Shown here: positions 5,191 through 55,440 of the stretch, piece by piece
Position numbering within the stretch: position 1 is the first letter of the stretch
How the letters are laid out: every line of letters begins with the position of its first letter
Assembly: GCF_002999135.1 (NCBI RefSeq)
Contig: NZ_CP027229.1
Location: forward strand, 2,703,501-2,767,500
Length of the DNA stretch: 64,000 bases
Reading direction: 5' to 3'
DNA from: Capnocytophaga sp. oral taxon 878
GTDB lineage: Bacteria; Bacteroidota; Bacteroidia; Flavobacteriales; Flavobacteriaceae
Program-made: the position numbers and the translations under genes
Notes under the pieces: generated by a model
The model's database searches: none
What the model saw: only the letters and a program-made list of their open reading frames with translations
Told to the model about the DNA's origin: nothing

Positions 5191-5472
5191 AAACCAAACA
5201 TTTTTCTACCTCCCTACCCCCTCATCTTACCTCCTACCTTTTACCTATTACCTATTACCTTCTATCCCCTGTCTCCTATCTCTTGTCTCCTGTCTATTAC
5301 CTCTTACCTCCAATTATCAAATTCGCATCTTTTTTCCATTTTTATTGCCGAATCCTCAAAAATCCACATTCCCCACACCTTACCTCTTATCTCTTGTCTA
5401 TCACATTGATAATCAACCTATTTCAATCCTCACTCACACCCCAGCTACCATACAGCCATCCCCTAACTTGAT

Positions 5473-5520
5473 CGAACGATGAACGAACTATAAACGAACT
5501 ATAAACGAACTATAAACGAA
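5473..5520 (+). repeat. 11-bp direct-repeat cluster, copy A
   Basis: Four consecutive 11-nt units (CGAACGATGAA, then three identical CGAACTATAAA) plus a partial CGAA. This is one of four such clusters in the window, always intergenic; the others are at 31651, 47516 and 55272. The CGAA strand is also the C-rich strand of the surrounding sequence. Confidence 0.9.
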
Positions 5521-5648
5521 GAACACATCCACCTCCCTGATTATCAACCCCTTCATTTCCATCCTCTATTTTTGTCAAATCCACAACAAAATCCCCCAAA
5601 TCCCCCTTTTTCCTCATTCACCCCTAACTCCTATCCCCTCCCTCCTTC

Positions 5649-5722
5649 CCCCTCTCTCCTAACTCCTATCCCCTAAAACTCCTATCCCCTCTCTCCTAAC
5701 TCCTATCCCCTAAAACTCCTTC
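5649..5722 (+). repeat. 37-bp tandem repeat, two copies
   Basis: The pyrimidine-rich unit that begins CCCCTCTCTCCTAACTCC occurs twice in direct succession with a nearly identical second copy. A shortened third piece follows (CCCCTAAAA). It is a non-coding satellite-like tract. Confidence 0.75.
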
Positions 5723-5796
5723 CCCTAAAACCCCTACCTCCCAGCTTATTACCCCTTTTCTCACTTTACAATCTTGTTCCACCCTGTTACAACTTC

Positions 5797-13320: not shown

Positions 13321-13734
13321 ATGCCAACAATTTCACAATTAGTACGAAAAGGAAGAACCAGAATTACCAAGAAGAGTAAATCGGTTGCTTTGGATTCGTG
13401 CCCACAACGCCGAGGTGTATGTACACGTGTGTATACCACAACGCCTAAAAAACCGAACTCAGCAATGCGTAAAGTAGCGCGTGTTCGTTTAACAAATGGC
13501 AACGAGGTGAACGCCTACATACCAGGTGAGGGACACAACCTTCAAGAGCACTCGATAGTATTGGTACGAGGCGGAAGGGTGAAAGATTTGCCAGGTGTTA
13601 GATACCACATTGTGCGTGGTGCTTTGGATACTGCCGGAGTAGCTGGTAGAACACAACGCCGCTCTAAATACGGTGCTAAACGCCCTAAACCAGGTCAAGC
13701 CGCTGCTGCACCAGCTAAAGGTAAGAAAAAGTAA
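13321..13734 (+). CDS. rpsL: 30S ribosomal protein S12
   Basis: A 137-residue decoding-centre protein. The conserved TPKKPNSA loop carries the wild-type lysine at position 43 (a lysine usually changed in streptomycin-resistant mutants). [13 protein letters not shown] near residue 85 is also intact. A lysine- and alanine-rich tail extends the C-terminus beyond E. coli S12. It is the first gene of the cluster, preceded by a strong promoter and a 140-nt leader. No Shine-Dalgarno is seen; the A/T-rich sequence before the ATG is normal for this phylum. Confidence 0.98.
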
Positions 13735-14251: not shown

Positions 14252-16372
14252 ATGAGTAGAGATTTAAAATATACAAGAAACATAGGTATTGCCGCTCACA
14301 TTGATGCGGGCAAAACCACCACTACTGAACGTATTCTATTCTATACAGGTAAAACCCACAAAATTGGTGAAGTACACGATGGAGCTTCAACAATGGACTG
14401 GATGGAGCAAGAAGCTGAACGCGGTATCACTATCCAATCAGCTGCTACTACTTGTAAATGGAATTTCCCTACCGAAAATGGTAAACCTACTGCCGATGCT
14501 AAAGAGTATCACTTCAACATTATCGATACTCCCGGTCACGTAGACTTTACAGTCGAAGTAAACCGCTCTCTACGCGTGCTTGACGGATTGGTATTCCTTT
14601 TCTCGGCTGTAGACGGAGTAGAGCCTCAGTCAGAAACTAACTGGCGTTTGGCTGATAACTACAAAGTGCCACGTATTGGTTTCGTAAACAAAATGGACCG
14701 CCAAGGTGCGAACTTCCTTAATGTTTGTAACCAAGTAAAGGAAATGCTTAAATCAAACGCTGTGCCTATCGTATTACCTATCGGTGATGAGGCTGACTTT
14801 AAAGGTGTAGTAGATTTGATTAAAAACCGTGCTATCGTATGGCACGAAGAAAACTCAGGTTCTACTTTTGACGTAGTAGAGATACCTGAAGAAATGAAAG
14901 AAGACGTAACTAAATACCGCGCACAACTTATTGAAGAAGTAGCAGGTTATGACGAAGGTCTTCTTGAAAAATTTATGGAAGATGAACACTCTATTACAGA
15001 GGATGAAATACACAAAGCATTACGTGCAGCTGTAATGGATATGGCAATTATCCCAATGGTATGCGGTTCTTCTTTCAAAAATAAAGGGGTGCAATTTATG
15101 CTTGATGCAGTATGCCGTTATTTACCTTCACCACTTGACAAAGAAGCTATTGAGGGTACTAACCCCGATACTGGTGAAGTAGCGTTGCGCAAACCATCAG
15201 TTGATGCTCCTTTCTCAGCGTTGGCATTTAAGATTGCTACCGACCCTTATGTAGGACGTTTAGCTTTCTTCCGCGCTTACTCAGGTCACTTAGATGCAGG
15301 TTCTTACGTGTTGAATACACGTTCTGGTAATAAAGAGCGTATCTCTCGTATCTACCAAATGCACGCTAACAAGCAAAACCCTATCGAATATATTGAAGCA
15401 GGTGATATAGGGGCAGCAGTAGGATTTAAAGATATCAAAACAGGTGATACTCTTTGCGATGAGAAATATCCTATCGTACTTGAAAGTATGGTATTCCCTG
15501 ACCCTGTGATTGGTATTGCAGTAGAACCTAAAACAAAAGCTGACGTTGATAAATTAGGTATGGCATTGGCTAAATTAGCTGAAGAAGACCCAACCTTCCA
15601 AGTGAAGACAGACCAAGCTTCTGGACAAACTATCATCTCAGGAATGGGTGAGTTACACTTGGATATCATTGTAGACCGTTTGAAACGTGAGTTCAAGGTA
15701 GAAGTGAACCAAGGTCAACCACAAGTAGAGTACAAAGAGGCTATTACTGGTAAAGCCGACCACCGCGAAGTCTACAAAAAACAAACAGGTGGACGTGGTA
15801 AGTTTGCTGACATTGTATTCCGTATGGAACCAGCAGAAGAAGGTAAAGTAGGCTTAGAATTTGTGAATGAAATCAAAGGTGGTAACATTCCTAAAGAATA
15901 TATCCCATCAGTAGAAAAAGGTTTCAAAGAAGCAATGAAGAGCGGACCTTTGGCAGGATTTGAAATGGATGCAATGAAGATAGTTCTTCTTGATGGATCA
16001 TTCCACCCTGTAGACTCTGACTCATTATCATTTGAGTTAGCAGCTAAGTTAGGTTACAAGGAAGCTGCTCGTGCTGCAAAAGCAGTATTGATGGAACCAA
16101 TTATGAAATTGGAAGTTATCACTCCAGAAGAAAATATGGGTGATATAGTAGGTGACTTGAACCGCCGTCGTGGACAAGTAAACAATATGGATGACCGTAA
16201 CGGTGCTAAAGTTATTAAAGCATTCGTTCCGCTATCAGAAATGTTTGGTTATGTAACATCATTGCGTACCCTTTCATCAGGACGAGCTACTTCGGTAATG
16301 GAGTTTTCACACTATGCTGAAACACCATCGAATATCGCAGAGGAAGTAATTAAAAACGCCAGAGGCAACTAA
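14252..16372 (+). CDS. fusA: translation elongation factor G
   Basis: A 706-residue GTPase driving ribosomal translocation. G-domain motifs are present: AHIDAGKT (residues 15-22), the RGIT switch, DTPGH and NKMD. The remaining domains follow ([20 protein letters not shown], then [26 protein letters not shown]). It lies between rpsG and rpsJ; tuf is not here. Confidence 0.98.
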
Positions 16373-28491: not shown

Positions 28492-28571
28492 TTTAATACT
28501 AACATACGAAAGGTTTTTTATTATCGAAGGAATGCCTTAATTCATAATACCTTTCAAATAAACATTAAAAA

Positions 28572-30996: not shown

Positions 30997-31865
30997 AAAG
31001 TAAGGGGGGTGTGACAGGTTTGTGCAGGCGTTTTTGTGTTTTTTTGCCTTTGCTCTTATGTTCTTTTTCTTCTTTGGTGATTTTCTTGTTGGATTTTCTT
31101 CTTTTTTAGCGGCTTTTTTTATTGACTTTCTTTATTTTTTTTGCTATTGTTTATCATAGTCGTCATATCACCACGTAACGAATGAAAATCTTCAATATTT
31201 TTCAAGGCTGTTACGGCTTTTGGGGTGTTTGGGTGATTGATTTAGGGTGGGAGTGTCTATATTCACCTATAAGTTGCTTTCTTAATGGTGTGGAAATTGA
31301 TTGCTTGCGGTGCTTGTAATCGTAATGTTTTTTGTGTATTTGTGCCTTCTGAGATTGGCTTATCATAATACAATATGGGTGAGAGGTGGATGAAATAGGC
31401 TGTGGATTTTTTCATGTTTATCTGACTGTCTTTGTAAGCTGACTTTGGTGTTGGTCTTTTTCTTCGTGTATTCAAAAAAAGTAATTATGCTTGCTAAAAG
31501 AATAGAGTGTTTAAAGGTTTTAAAAGGGGTGCTTTAACGTAAAAAAGCTGTTTTTCTGATTGGTTTATTTTTCTGTTTTTGACGTGAAAAATAGAAATAT
31601 GTACTATTTTTAGGTGCTTTGGTAGTTGTGAGGGGGTTGGGGGTTTTATGTTTATCCTTCGTTTATAGTTCGTTTATCCTTCGTTTATCGTTCGTTCAGC
31701 CTATCAGTAGAGAAATATTCGTTTGGGGTATGGGTGGGATTTTGGTGTATTTGACTTGTTGGTGAATTGGTGGGCTAACGGGGTGGTAGGTGAGTAGGCT
31801 GGGGGGTAGGGTAGGGGTGGAGGATTGGTAGATGGGGGGTGAGGATATTAATATTTTTAATAAAA
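30997..31865. other. intergenic region, T/G-rich, with 11-bp repeat cluster
   Basis: About 870 nt with no supported gene. The left part is T-rich (Lys-rich in the minus-strand frame). From 31620 onward the plus strand is strongly G-rich. It contains direct-repeat cluster B. A 70-codon minus-strand ORF at 31263-31475 has no recognisable features. Confidence 0.6.
31651..31694 (-). repeat. 11-bp direct-repeat cluster, copy B
   Basis: Four 11-nt units: TTTATCCTTCG, TTTATAGTTCG, TTTATCCTTCG, TTTATCGTTCG. On the minus strand these read CGAANNATAAA, the same as copies A and D. The minus strand is the C-rich one here, preserving the polarity seen in copy A. Confidence 0.9.
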
Positions 31866-43136: not shown

Positions 43137-46100
43137 TTAGTAATTAATGTAAAGCCAACCTTCTTGAGTAGCTTTGTCTTTAATGGTGAATTTATAGAAA
43201 TAATAGCCTTGAGGTACTTTTTTGCCATCGATACCGATACCTTTCCACTGATTGTGGTACCCACGAGCTTCATAGACTAATAGCCCTGTACGTGAGTAAA
43301 TTTGCAGGGTGTTTTGCTTATAGAGGCTTATGCGCTGGATTACAAAACTATCATTAATGCCATCCTCATTAGGAGAAAAAGCATTAGGGATGAGAACAGT
43401 GTCGAAATCTTTATCCTTATCATTAGGAGTGCCATCACCGTCGGCATCATCATCACAGGTATCGCCAATGCCATCGCGGTCGGTATCTTCTTGGTTGGGG
43501 TTATAGTGATAAGGGCAGTTATCTTTACTATTTTCTCTGCCATCGCCATCAAGGTCGTTATCACAAGCATCGCCTATGCCATCGCCATCGGTGTCTGTTT
43601 GTGAAGGATTGGGGATGTAAGGGCAATTATCTTGTGCATTGGGTATGCCATCGCCATCGATATCATCATCACAGACATCGCCGATGCCGTCTTTATCGGT
43701 GTCGGCTTGGTCGGGGTTATGGGTGTCGGGGCAGTTATCAAGGTTATTTTTCACGCCATCGCCATCGCGATCGTCGTCACAAGCGTCGCCTATGCCGTCT
43801 TTATCGAGGTCTTTTTGGTCGGGGTTAATAAGATCAGGACAGTTGTCTTTTTCATCGGGAACTTTGTCCAAATCACGGTCGCCGCTACATATATCGCCAA
43901 TGCCATCATTGTCAGAATCTTTTTGGTCGGGGTTGGCGTGGTAAGGGCAGTTATCTTGCTGGTTGGGGATGCCATCGCCATCGGCATCGGGGTCGCAAGC
44001 ATCGCCTATGCCGTCTTTATCGGTATCGCGTTGGTTGGTGTTTTTAATATCGGGGCAGTTATCATAAGAGTTACGAACGCCATCGCCATCGCGATCGTCG
44101 TCACAGACATCGCCTATGCCATCGCCATCAAGGTCGGCTTGGTCGGGGTTGGCAGTTTCGATACAGTTATCTTGACTATCGGGGATGCCATCGCCATCGA
44201 CATCGGCATCGTCTTTCACAATAATTTTACCTAAATTCACTGCCAAGAATATGTTATTGGTAGGGCGAATCATAAAGCGGCCATTGGTGGTAGTAAAATC
44301 GGTAGTTACGGTAAAAGTGTAAGTACCGTTATTAGGGATATTGGCTGCGAGAGTTTTGGTAAATGTTTTGCCATCGGCAGCAAATAGGATATTTACTTTT
44401 TGTGCATTAATTTCTTCTTTATCGGTATTGGCCACTGCCCACGTGATGGTGTGAGTTTTGCCTATGAACCAATAGCTTTTTTGGAGCTGAGAGGTGACTT
44501 CAAAGGGGCCAGCAGTATTCACTACATTGACTTTGATAGTGCTAAAACTTGTGTTACCTGTACTTTGGTCGGTTTCACGGTCGGCACGTTTGCCTAAGGT
44601 TTTATCGGTAACTACGAAAGCCCAAGTGAGGGAACGCTTTACGCTAGTAACGGTTTCCCAATTACTACGGCGGTTGGGGTTGCGCTCACTTAGCTTCCCT
44701 TCTAAAATGCTGCTAAGGCGAGGGATGTAACGTTCGGTTGATTGGCTGGGAGGTAGGGAGCGTGCTATAGGCCCTTCGGAAAGGTTATCGCCAAACACAT
44801 CGGCAGTAACGGTAGGGCGCCCAGGTTGTGGGCTATTGTGTTGCTCCCAAGTGTAGTATAGCTGATCATTATCGGCATCGGTAGCGGAGCCTACTAAATG
44901 ATAGGCGGTGCTTTGAGGAATGGTGTAGTCCTGCAAATCATTAATTACAGGAGGTGTATTGGTAATAGGTGTTTTGGTAGCACAGCTGGTGCTGCTGATG
45001 TATTTCATTATTTGCCATACGCTTATGTGGTTAAAATAAGGGTCGGTACGGGCTTGTACATCATTGGAGCCAGAGATACCTGCGTAGCCCATAATGGTGG
45101 AGCCACTACCAGGTTCGACTTGGGCGCCAGAGCTTTCGTTTTGGAGGTTATGTACGTGGTTTGCTCCCATTTGGTGGCCTAACTCGTGACAGAAGAAATC
45201 GATATCGAAGATGTCTTTTTCGGTGTTTTTGAGGTTTCCGGCAGAGAAGGCTCTTCCTTTATCATTTTTATCGCATACGCAGCCTATACAGCCTGCGTTA
45301 CCATTGGGCTGGTTGGTGTGGTGGAATACGTGTCCTACATCGTATTTATCATTGCCTACTTTTTCATCTAAGAATTTTTGGAGAGGCTCGCCAGTCCAGC
45401 TCATATTGAGGTTATTGCGGAAGGGGTCGTCTTTACGGTTGCGGATGATAGTTTCTTCGCCAGAAACGAGCTGGAACTGTATAGACATTTGGGTGCGGTA
45501 TACTTGGTTGGCTCTTTGGACGGTAGAGACTACTTGTTCCAGAGCTTTTTCGGGACGGCTACCGAACTGAGCGGTATAATCACTAGTAGTAGCTATAGCG
45601 ATGCGTAGGGTACGCAAGCTGTTTTCGGTTTCGAAGGTGTTGCGTAGGGTAGCATTAGAGGCTTGGGTAGGGCGTGCTGTATGGCTTAAGTGGCTTATGC
45701 GTGCTGCTGTTTGGCAGCTAAAGGTCATCTTATCGATAGCATTGGCACGGTGGTAGGCTATGTGTTTTACTCCGTTTTTGCTTGAAGGCTGTACAAAGGA
45801 GTAAGAGTTATTAAGGCTGATTATTACGGAGAGTCCGTTTTCGCCCCAAGTAAAGGAAACTTCTTTGTTGGGGTTTTGGGTGGAGTACCCTGCATAAGTT
45901 TGGATTTGAGGGTAGCGAGCTTGTAGGGCAGGGGAGAGGACAGGCTGAGGTTTCACTATAAAAGTTTCGAGCTGCCCATCGGCATTGGGGAGTAGTATTT
46001 CGACCCCTTGGGCAGTAGGACGTGCTGCGGGGTTATGGAGTGCTTTGGCAAAGGCTTTTCGGTTTAAATTATACTCGAAGTGAGTAGTGGTTGGGGTGTT

Positions 46101-47515: not shown

Positions 47516-47557
47516 TATCCTTCGTTTATAGTTCGTTTATAGTTCGTTCATCGTTCG
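47516..47557 (-). repeat. 11-bp direct-repeat cluster, copy C
   Basis: Partial TATCCTTCG, then TTTATAGTTCG twice and TTCATCGTTCG. Read on the minus strand this is CGAACGATGAA, two CGAACTATAAA and a partial CGAAGGATA, closely matching copy A unit by unit. It lies in the 143-nt gap between the TonB receptor and HmuY genes, flanked by a G-rich plus strand. Confidence 0.9.
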
Positions 47558-47610
47558 TTTGGGGTAGGGGGTGGTTAGGTGTAGGTTGGTGGGTGCTAAG
47601 GGAGCGTGTG

Positions 47611-55097: not shown

Positions 55098-55440
55098 AAA
55101 AGCCACCGCCACTCTCCCCCTTCTTATCCCTTGCCTTTTGCCTAAAATTCATCTTTTTTCCCCTTTCATTGCCAATCTTTCAAAAAAGATAACTCCTATT
55201 TCACTTTTGGGCAGAAAATACAAAACCTTAATAATCAATACATTTGTCTATTAACCTCACCCCAAAAACATCGAACTACGAACGAACCTATAACGAAGGA
55301 TAAACGAACTGTAAACGAACTATAAGCAAACACACCCCTACTTTACTGGCTCTCAGTAAGTTCTTTCCAAAAAGGACTTTTTGCGAAAATCGCAACAAAA
55401 TCCTCAAAACATCACATTTTTCTCAATCTCTCTTTTCCTC
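55098..55440. other. C-rich intergenic region with repeat cluster D
   Basis: No gene seen. The plus strand is C-rich. Around the 11-bp cluster it shares short words with the 5.2-5.6 kb gap (for example ATCTTTTTTCC, TTTCATTGCC and CACAACAAAATCC-like), as if the two gaps derive from one longer element. Confidence 0.55.
55272..55326 (+). repeat. 11-bp direct-repeat cluster, copy D
   Basis: Five 11-nt units: CGAACTACGAA, CGAACCTATAA, CGAAGGATAAA, CGAACTGTAAA, CGAACTATAAG. It is more diverged than copies A-C but keeps the exact 11-nt period and the CGAA core. Confidence 0.88.

Follow-up and report, generated by a model that had tools for sequence, protein, structure and literature searches.

An 11-bp direct-repeat family with a one-sided adenine ladder in Capnocytophaga sp. 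oral taxon 878: candidate polar protein-binding arrays at gene starts

In Capnocytophaga sp. oral taxon 878, an 11-nt unit is repeated in short intergenic arrays, each with a conserved head and, on its 5' side, a ladder of single A residues in phase with the units. The 11-bp period, together with a near-invariant head, a phased one-base ladder and placement at gene starts, is the imprint expected of a protein that touches DNA once per turn on one face. We propose, with a probability of about 0.5, that each site would be a polar, operator-like binding array for one putative sequence-specific DNA-binding protein, regulating the adjoining promoters. The suggestion of an earlier sequence-only reading, that a protein could contact the same helix face at each unit, would still be the best reading of the period, the head and the ladder.

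The window, that is, the whole stretch of 64,000 nucleotides analyzed here (positions 2703501-2767500 of a 2.96-Mb contig), contains four arrays. They had been described as four 11-nt clusters from the letters alone, and their coordinates, period of 11 and consensus were all verified. The features are the following, class A being a class of copies with shared flanks.

5473..5521, plus strand: array head 1, CGAACGATGAA followed by three times CGAACTATAAA and CGAAG (direct reading; TRF period 11, 94% matches)
5432..5476, plus strand: A-ladder 5' of head 1, with A at 5476, 5465, 5454, 5443 and 5432, and T one step further
5326..5610, plus strand: class A long flanks of head 1, left TTTTATTGCCGAATCCTCAAAAATCC, CTGATTATCA at 5537-5546, right TTTTTGTCAAATCCACAACAAAATCC (read against the class A consensus; edges approximate)
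31651..31694, minus strand: array head 2, CGAACGATAAA CGAAGGATAAA CGAACTATAAA CGAAGGATAAA (direct reading, TRF and pattern matches)
31691..31768, minus strand: A-ladder 5' of head 2, with minus-strand A at seven of eight positions, T at 31713, and G at the next step, 31779
47516..47557, minus strand: array head 3, CGAACGATGAA CGAACTATAAA CGAACTATAAA CGAAGGATA (direct reading, TRF and pattern matches)
47554..47587, minus strand: A-ladder 5' of head 3, with A at 47554, 47565, 47576 and 47587, and T at 47598
55272..55326, plus strand: array head 4, CGAACTACGAA CGAACCTATAA CGAAGGATAAA CGAACTGTAAA CGAACTATAAG (direct reading, TRF and pattern matches)
55220..55275, plus strand: A-ladder 5' of head 4, with A at 55275, 55264, 55253, 55242, 55231 and 55220, then G at 55209
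55145..55430, plus strand: class A long flanks of head 4, left TTTCATTGCCAATCTTTCAAAAAAG, right GCGAAAATCGCAACAAAATCCTCAAAACATCACATTTTTCTC (read against the class A consensus; edges approximate)

All four window copies show the A-ladder. By reading, sites 1 and 4 have the class A flanking element and sites 2 and 3 lack it; the short class A pattern labeled site 1 alone, missing site 4 despite its class A flanks. Head 3 is flanked by a TonB-receptor gene and an HmuY-family gene (assigned by Pfam), both on one strand. For the 15-mer CGAANNATAAACGAA, which spans two units, 21 matches with at most two mismatches are found in the window against 2.24 expected (100 dinucleotide shuffles, largest 7), 15 of them inside the four clusters. 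The gap around array 1 (5200-5740) is filled by C-rich, G-poor low-complexity repeats with periods of 7-51 nt, for example CTACCTC and CCCCTAACTCCTAT. Elsewhere in the window, a 108-bp tandem repeat (43430-43844) lies within a 1023-aa ORF on the minus strand, and an Rfam search gave no match at the arrays, its sole match being an S4-Flavobacteria ribosomal-protein leader at 28519-28549 (RF03141).

The clusters are not confined to these four sites, being found across this genome and in three congeners too (Capnocytophaga bilenii, Capnocytophaga leadbetteri and the genome G017). In the whole genome, CGAANNATAAACGAA has 184 + 261 = 445 exact matches compared with 1 + 0 for a reversed-pattern control, and 204 + 296 compared with 14 + 8 when up to one mismatch is allowed. 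A 1.26-Mb sample, composed of the contiguous stretch of 1.2 Mb at 330001-1530000 and the window, holds 83 arrays, giving by extrapolation about 200 for the genome. Also, 81 of these 83 are outside called ORFs (greedy longest-ORF calls, uncurated, taking ATG/GTG/TTG and 90 aa in one run and ATG and 70 aa in the array sample).

The anatomy of the arrays was analyzed in 111 distinct copies, 36 of class A and 75 others, collected with a 27-nt core and at most five mismatches, which bounds the core divergence and keeps very diverged heads out of the set. The head is a fixed series of four units with the consensus CGAA-NN-ATAAA, typically CGAACGAATAA CGAAGGATAAA CGAACTATAAA CGAAGGATA. Copies with zero to five core mismatches number 76, 9, 16, 3, 6 and 1, respectively, and this pile-up at zero, with only 10 copies having three to five, is not the distribution of a cut-off tail. 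Class A copies share a flank of about 290 bp, with TTGCCAATATTTCAAAAA on the left, CTGATTATCAG immediately right of the array and TTTGCCAAATTCGCAACAAAATCCCC further right. The two classes were told apart with a short pattern matching the palindrome downstream, so the second one ("B") comprises everything else, including some copies with class A flanks.

Most non-class-A copies have no common flanks by eye. In these 75 copies the 34-nt array is 2.8% off the consensus (46 of 75 being identical) compared with 54% for the adjacent 26 nt, and therefore adjoining parts of the same copies differ in history. Selection would be the simplest cause of the array conservation, with array-confined conversion as the alternative. 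The common unit order (GG, CT, GG) points to common descent as well as selection. A recognizable hairpin, GTYAGCNAGCTGGCGCAGCTRAGTATG, is kept in 18 of the 75 copies with some paired changes, although these were selected for hairpin resemblance and their pair table leans towards the hairpin. The proposal that the clusters are part of a longer oriented element is then correct for some copies only, namely the 36 of 111 with long class A flanks and the 18 of the other 75 with the hairpin.

Upstream of the head, the ladder runs for about nine turns, with an A at every 11th base pair that keeps the phase of the units. The fractions of copies with A at the final base of the unit are.97,.90,.76,.71,.64,.72 and.54 from unit -3 to unit -9 (n = 111). 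For the 75 non-class-A copies, the upstream A periodicity has a chi2 of 255 at period 11 compared with 10-65 at periods 7-10 and 12-16, and it persists after similar flanks are dropped (70 of 75 copies, with dissimilar flanks, were kept). The ladder is mostly one-sided in this set, the downstream side giving a chi2 of 48 near the array and 27 far from it, hence not fully flat, against 227 and 202 upstream over comparable spans. In 348 array-free gaps the lag-11 A/T ratio is 1.008. In class A, period 11 is also the highest (chi2 165), but period 10 reaches 111 and the signal is inseparable from the shared sequence. Among the congeners, the upstream period of 11 is prominent in G017 and C. leadbetteri and is not resolved in C. 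bilenii. G017 shows an 11-bp signal on both sides of the array, stronger downstream, where it is possibly due to array units cut off by the detector.

These features bear on whether the arrays are simply copied or slipped DNA. A non-autonomous mobile or copied element (MITE-like, of the BrickBuilt type), with an internal minisatellite homogenized by recombination and no need of a function, would account for the ordered unit series common to copies at unrelated sites and for the approximately 290 bp shared by class A copies. Occupied and empty orthologous sites also agree with it: 3 bp in this genome correspond to 228 bp including an array in C. leadbetteri, 27 bp in C. leadbetteri to 246 bp including an array in C. 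bilenii, and 143 bp including an array in this genome to 16 bp in C. leadbetteri. However, copying would leave no A-ladder in otherwise dissimilar flanks, and visual inspection of the class A consensus and of the empty and filled pairs revealed no terminal inverted repeat or target duplication, the pairs being too diverged for certainty. Y1/REP transposase (Y1_Tnp, the only family covered) has 0 matches in the four array-bearing species sampled, this genome, C. bilenii, C. leadbetteri and G017, with the control positive in 5 of 14 known genomes, which also led to the rejection of a REP/REPIN system with its RAYT. Likewise, phage or plasmid cargo was discarded because an 86-nt array-plus-hairpin query found no phage or plasmid match. 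One IMG/VR contig (L331) holds three CGAAGTATAAA units. We consider this explanation of the arrays unlikely; that the copies arose by mobility or recombination is nevertheless compatible with the same data and probably accounts for the shared unit order, but not for the ladder.

Neutral slippage of a microsatellite would fit the longer uniform runs present in G007 (C. leadbetteri) and G017, but it is extremely improbable given the unit order conserved at unrelated sites, the near-identical heads, the phase-locked ladder and the contextual bias. The view of the sequence-only reading that the clusters are a maintained family is supported.

The placement of the arrays is strongly biased in this genome. 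Arrays occupy 43 of the 92 divergent gaps of at least 50 bp, 37 of the 371 tandem ones and 1 of the 69 convergent ones (Fisher test for divergent versus convergent, 3.5e-12), and for gaps of 200-700 bp the counts are 36 of 59, 26 of 117 and 0 of 20, respectively. The bias has the same direction in the three congeners, in stretches mostly picked around arrays. Of the arrays in tandem gaps, 25 are oriented opposite to the genes and 12 along with them, a weak bias that is inconsistent in the congeners. Moreover, among 72 array-facing spans that are 200 nt long or more, 49 have the motif TAnnTTTG within the 100 nt that precede the start and 9 have it within the 100 nt adjoining the array; being near the start and rarely beside the array, it places most arrays upstream of a promoter-like motif. 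This strict test was used after a loose one (T[AT]nnTTTG) proved poorly controlled, as 16 of 25 convergent gaps also match. With the loose motif, the distance from the array varies from 14 to 511 nt, and 17 of 126 array-gene pairs have no motif between them. In one orthologous pair, the array is downstream of the promoter-like motif, between it and the start codon, in both species.

The orientation of the arrays along the chromosome does not suit a role in segregation or replication polarity, as the sequence-only reading had considered. Both orientations are present in every 200-kb bin of the 1.2-Mb stretch from 330 to 1530 kb, and they are mixed too in partial position lists (covering one strand up to 1.4 Mb and the other up to 1.1 Mb). 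KOPS-like or segregation sites were therefore rejected, since the orientation, mixed in each bin of 330-1530 kb, would not follow the replichores. The likeness to iterons holds for the shape of the arrays, but about 200 dispersed sites (extrapolated) do not suit a replicon origin, and plasmid iterons or parC were discarded because the arrays are spread over the chromosome and not at one origin or centromere locus. Some arrays are located at gene-order breaks between species, for example near 13499 of the stretch 570001-590000 of this genome and near 15325 of its stretch 930001-950000, and dispersed arrays may act as rearrangement points.

The strand bearing CGAA had also been described as C-rich. 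Over 450 nt around each window site (250 nt upstream plus 200 nt downstream, coding bases included), C/G counts on this strand are 181/14, 130/39, 128/50 and 128/39 for sites 1 to 4, and in the 1.26-Mb sample 82 of 83 array flanks have more C than G, with a median skew of 0.57. For gaps of at least 200 bp, a skew above 0.4 is found in 57% of 79 array gaps versus 3% of 148 array-free gaps. The asymmetry is centered on the array, extending about 250 bp upstream and, with less strength, beyond 200 bp downstream. However, C exceeds G in only 1 of 26 cases in G017, where the sign is reversed, in 19 of 25 in C. leadbetteri and in 15 of 28 in C. bilenii, near zero. The C-rich strand therefore does not belong to a cross-species core, nor to a function common to the species. 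Also, in this genome 11 of 79 array gaps but none of 148 array-free ones have G3 x 4 motifs on the TTCG strand, and in C. leadbetteri 4 of 19 compared with 1 of 33, whereas such motifs are present in 0 of 21 array gaps in G017 and in 1 of 20 per strand in C. bilenii.

These strand features, together with placement, enter into an alternative reading of the arrays as an architectural or topological element, such as a nucleoid-protein filament, a promoter insulator or a negative-supercoil sink between divergent promoters, and not as a regulator of individual genes. The strong divergent bias with near-absence from convergent gaps, the 11-bp phase, the G3 x 4 enrichment in two species and the asymmetry centered on the array would all agree with it, but skew and G-runs that change from species to species speak against it, and we judge it quite unlikely. 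An RNA-level element, that is, a Rho loading site or a structured leader made from the C-rich, G-poor transcript of the CGAA strand, would use the same composition over about 450 bp, and could be exemplified by the orthologous arrays located between motif and start codon and by the 12 of 83 arrays that are found in tandem gaps and run with transcription. In this case, near-avoidance of convergent 3' ends (1 of 69) and the reversed skew of G017 are unfavorable, and TAnnTTTG, mostly between array and start codon, would leave most arrays outside the mRNA. Moreover, the alignment of the 36 class A copies gives a consensus fold of 0.0 kcal/mol on the CGAA strand and a negligible -1.5 on the other one (column shuffles 0.0), and a conserved RNA was rejected on the lack of a class A fold on the CGAA strand. 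An RNA-level function is accordingly very unlikely. A three-frame stop cassette was also considered because TRA (TAA/TGA) is present in many units, and discarded because the commonest G017 unit, CGAACAAAAGA (42 copies), has no stop.

Comparison with other genomes shows that the format is kept while its spelling changes. With up to one mismatch, a four-unit pattern is found 33 times in this genome, 56 in C. bilenii, 59 in C. leadbetteri, 25 in G017 and once in G013, and no array is detected with it in 15 of 19 Capnocytophaga congeners, which makes the system dispensable in the genus. The commonest units are CGAAGGATAAA and CGAACTATAAA in this genome, CGAAGGATRAG in C. bilenii, CGAAGGATAAG and CGAACGATGAG in C. 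leadbetteri, and CGAACAAAAGA and CGAACAATGAA in G017, so each of the three sampled congeners keeps period 11 with unit spelling of its own. In a motif-free count of tandem periods in gaps, period 11 comes first, with 14 of 45 arrays in this genome, 27 of 66 in G017, 14 of 30 in C. leadbetteri and 27 of 61 in C. bilenii. This count includes period-11 units unlike CGAA, such as TGGGTCTACAG and TATAGGAAGCT in G017, and only the sample of this genome, a contiguous stretch, is free of selection around arrays; occupancy and period counts of G007, G002 and G017 are biased, because the G007, G002 and most G017 stretches were chosen around known arrays. In G017 (about 2455320-2455870) a different hairpin, GGTGCGAGCCGCACGGG, recurs within arrays and covers two 11-bp steps in register.

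Occupancy also turns over between species. When this genome is compared with the three congeners, orthologous gaps with conserved gene order are mostly array-free in both species, and for the conserved-order gene pairs, summed over the three, an array is present in one species only in 8 comparisons and in both in 2. Of the two shared arrays, one has the same orientation and the other the opposite. Regarding a possible protein, PF00486 (OmpR/PhoB type), the only DNA-binding family examined, has 1-3 members per genome in 20 congeners, with arrays or without. An array lies upstream of a PF00486 kinase-regulator operon in G017 and C. bilenii but not in C. leadbetteri or this genome, and on this basis autoregulation of the sole OmpR-type regulator common to the four array-bearing species was rejected.

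More widely, an order-wide sample of 119 genomes, including this one, gave one other genome with one match. A scan of named genomes other than the window's own returned at least 120 stretches; 80 of them were listed and examined, 16 of these loci being from Capnocytophaga and many others lying in long open frames and probably unrelated. Among the matches listed, Chitinophaga alhagiae has ordered CGAA arrays at two loci and Chitinophaga sp. E66 has arrays at three, and thus CGAA arrays with an 11-nt period may extend more widely through Bacteroidota. The two separate loci of C. alhagiae have the identical ordered series CGAACCTCAAG CGAACGAGAAG CGAAGGAGAAG CGAACGAGAAG CGAAGGA.

No prior description of these repeats was found among the listed matches of the open-licence full-text literature, and we know of no described bacterial element with such a head-plus-ladder sequence code. 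The DnaA-trios beside DnaA boxes also combine nucleation boxes with a directional ladder of one conserved base per step, in that case a 3-nt step at a replication origin. By analogy, the arrays would work like boxes plus a ladder, but with an 11-bp step and at many gene-start regions.

Among the systems with published accounts, the PHO box and other OmpR-PhoB operators share the 11-nt period confirmed here: as far as the source was available, they are tandem direct repeats of 11-nt units with conserved and freer positions, varying in unit number and organization, on which PhoB oligomerizes cooperatively (PMC4415409). In contrast, the arrays described here form about 200 near-identical sites per genome (extrapolated), with a one-sided one-base ladder of about nine turns, a strong divergent bias and a cognate protein that is putative. 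Cooperative binding to units of 11 nt is known from PhoB-type operators, and the likeness to them would be functional and not one of membership. BrickBuilt of Porphyromonas gingivalis is another dispersed intergenic minisatellite element in Bacteroidota, in the parts of the source consulted a 23-nt minisatellite within a MITE, with 19 copies in one strain and a leader and tail with small inverted-repeat ends (PMC4596501), whereas here the unit has 11 nt, the copies are about ten times as many and no inverted ends were seen. The TAACTGA repeats of Beggiatoaceae, some Cyanobacteria and five Bacteroidetes also form many short, oriented, intergenic sets of direct repeats, 169 in one draft genome, but the unit has 7 nt and is mostly a few nt from the start codon in that genome, and the consulted parts show no helical ladder (PMC4679880). 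Finally, Subirana and Messeguer reported tandem repeats of constant size and variable sequence and suggested proteins that polymerize on DNA (PMC8161180). As in our arrays, the period is kept while the sequence changes between species; the sizes given in the consulted text are 20-21 and 52 nt, and the term "11 nt" is absent from it.

Based on these data, the operator-like array would work as follows. The putative protein would sit head to tail on the direct repeats, with one subunit per 11 bp on a single helix face and the four-unit head as the high-affinity nucleation part. From there, the complex would grow 5'-ward along the ladder, guided by one A per turn over otherwise free sequence. As one or two promoter-like motifs lie downstream of most arrays, the complex probably regulates nearby promoters or keeps divergent ones apart. 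The drift of unit spelling between species could reflect co-evolution of site and protein, and heads may have been copied and homogenized between sites, probably by duplication and gene conversion. On the other hand, the turnover of occupancy, the lack of arrays in 15 of 19 congeners with the four-unit pattern, the variable motif distance and the location of site 3 between co-directional genes are points against a regulator array. A more far-reaching version, which we offer tentatively and hold to be possible rather than probable, is a genome-wide polar nucleoprotein filament code, in which the head would nucleate a one-way spread that follows one A per turn over as many as nine turns; the filament would set divergent promoters apart from each other and leave behind a domain of about 450 bp with strand asymmetry.

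If the operator-like reading holds, nearly half of the regions where genes start divergently, in the portion of the genome sampled (43 of 92), would share one putative protein-binding array, which would be a major organizer of transcription in these species. With the head-plus-ladder anatomy, one could then test directly and at low cost how helical phase is read by a filament on DNA, and the dialects of the species would be a natural experiment in the co-evolution of a protein with about 200 sites. Moreover, the dispersed copies may bear on gene-order change in the genus.
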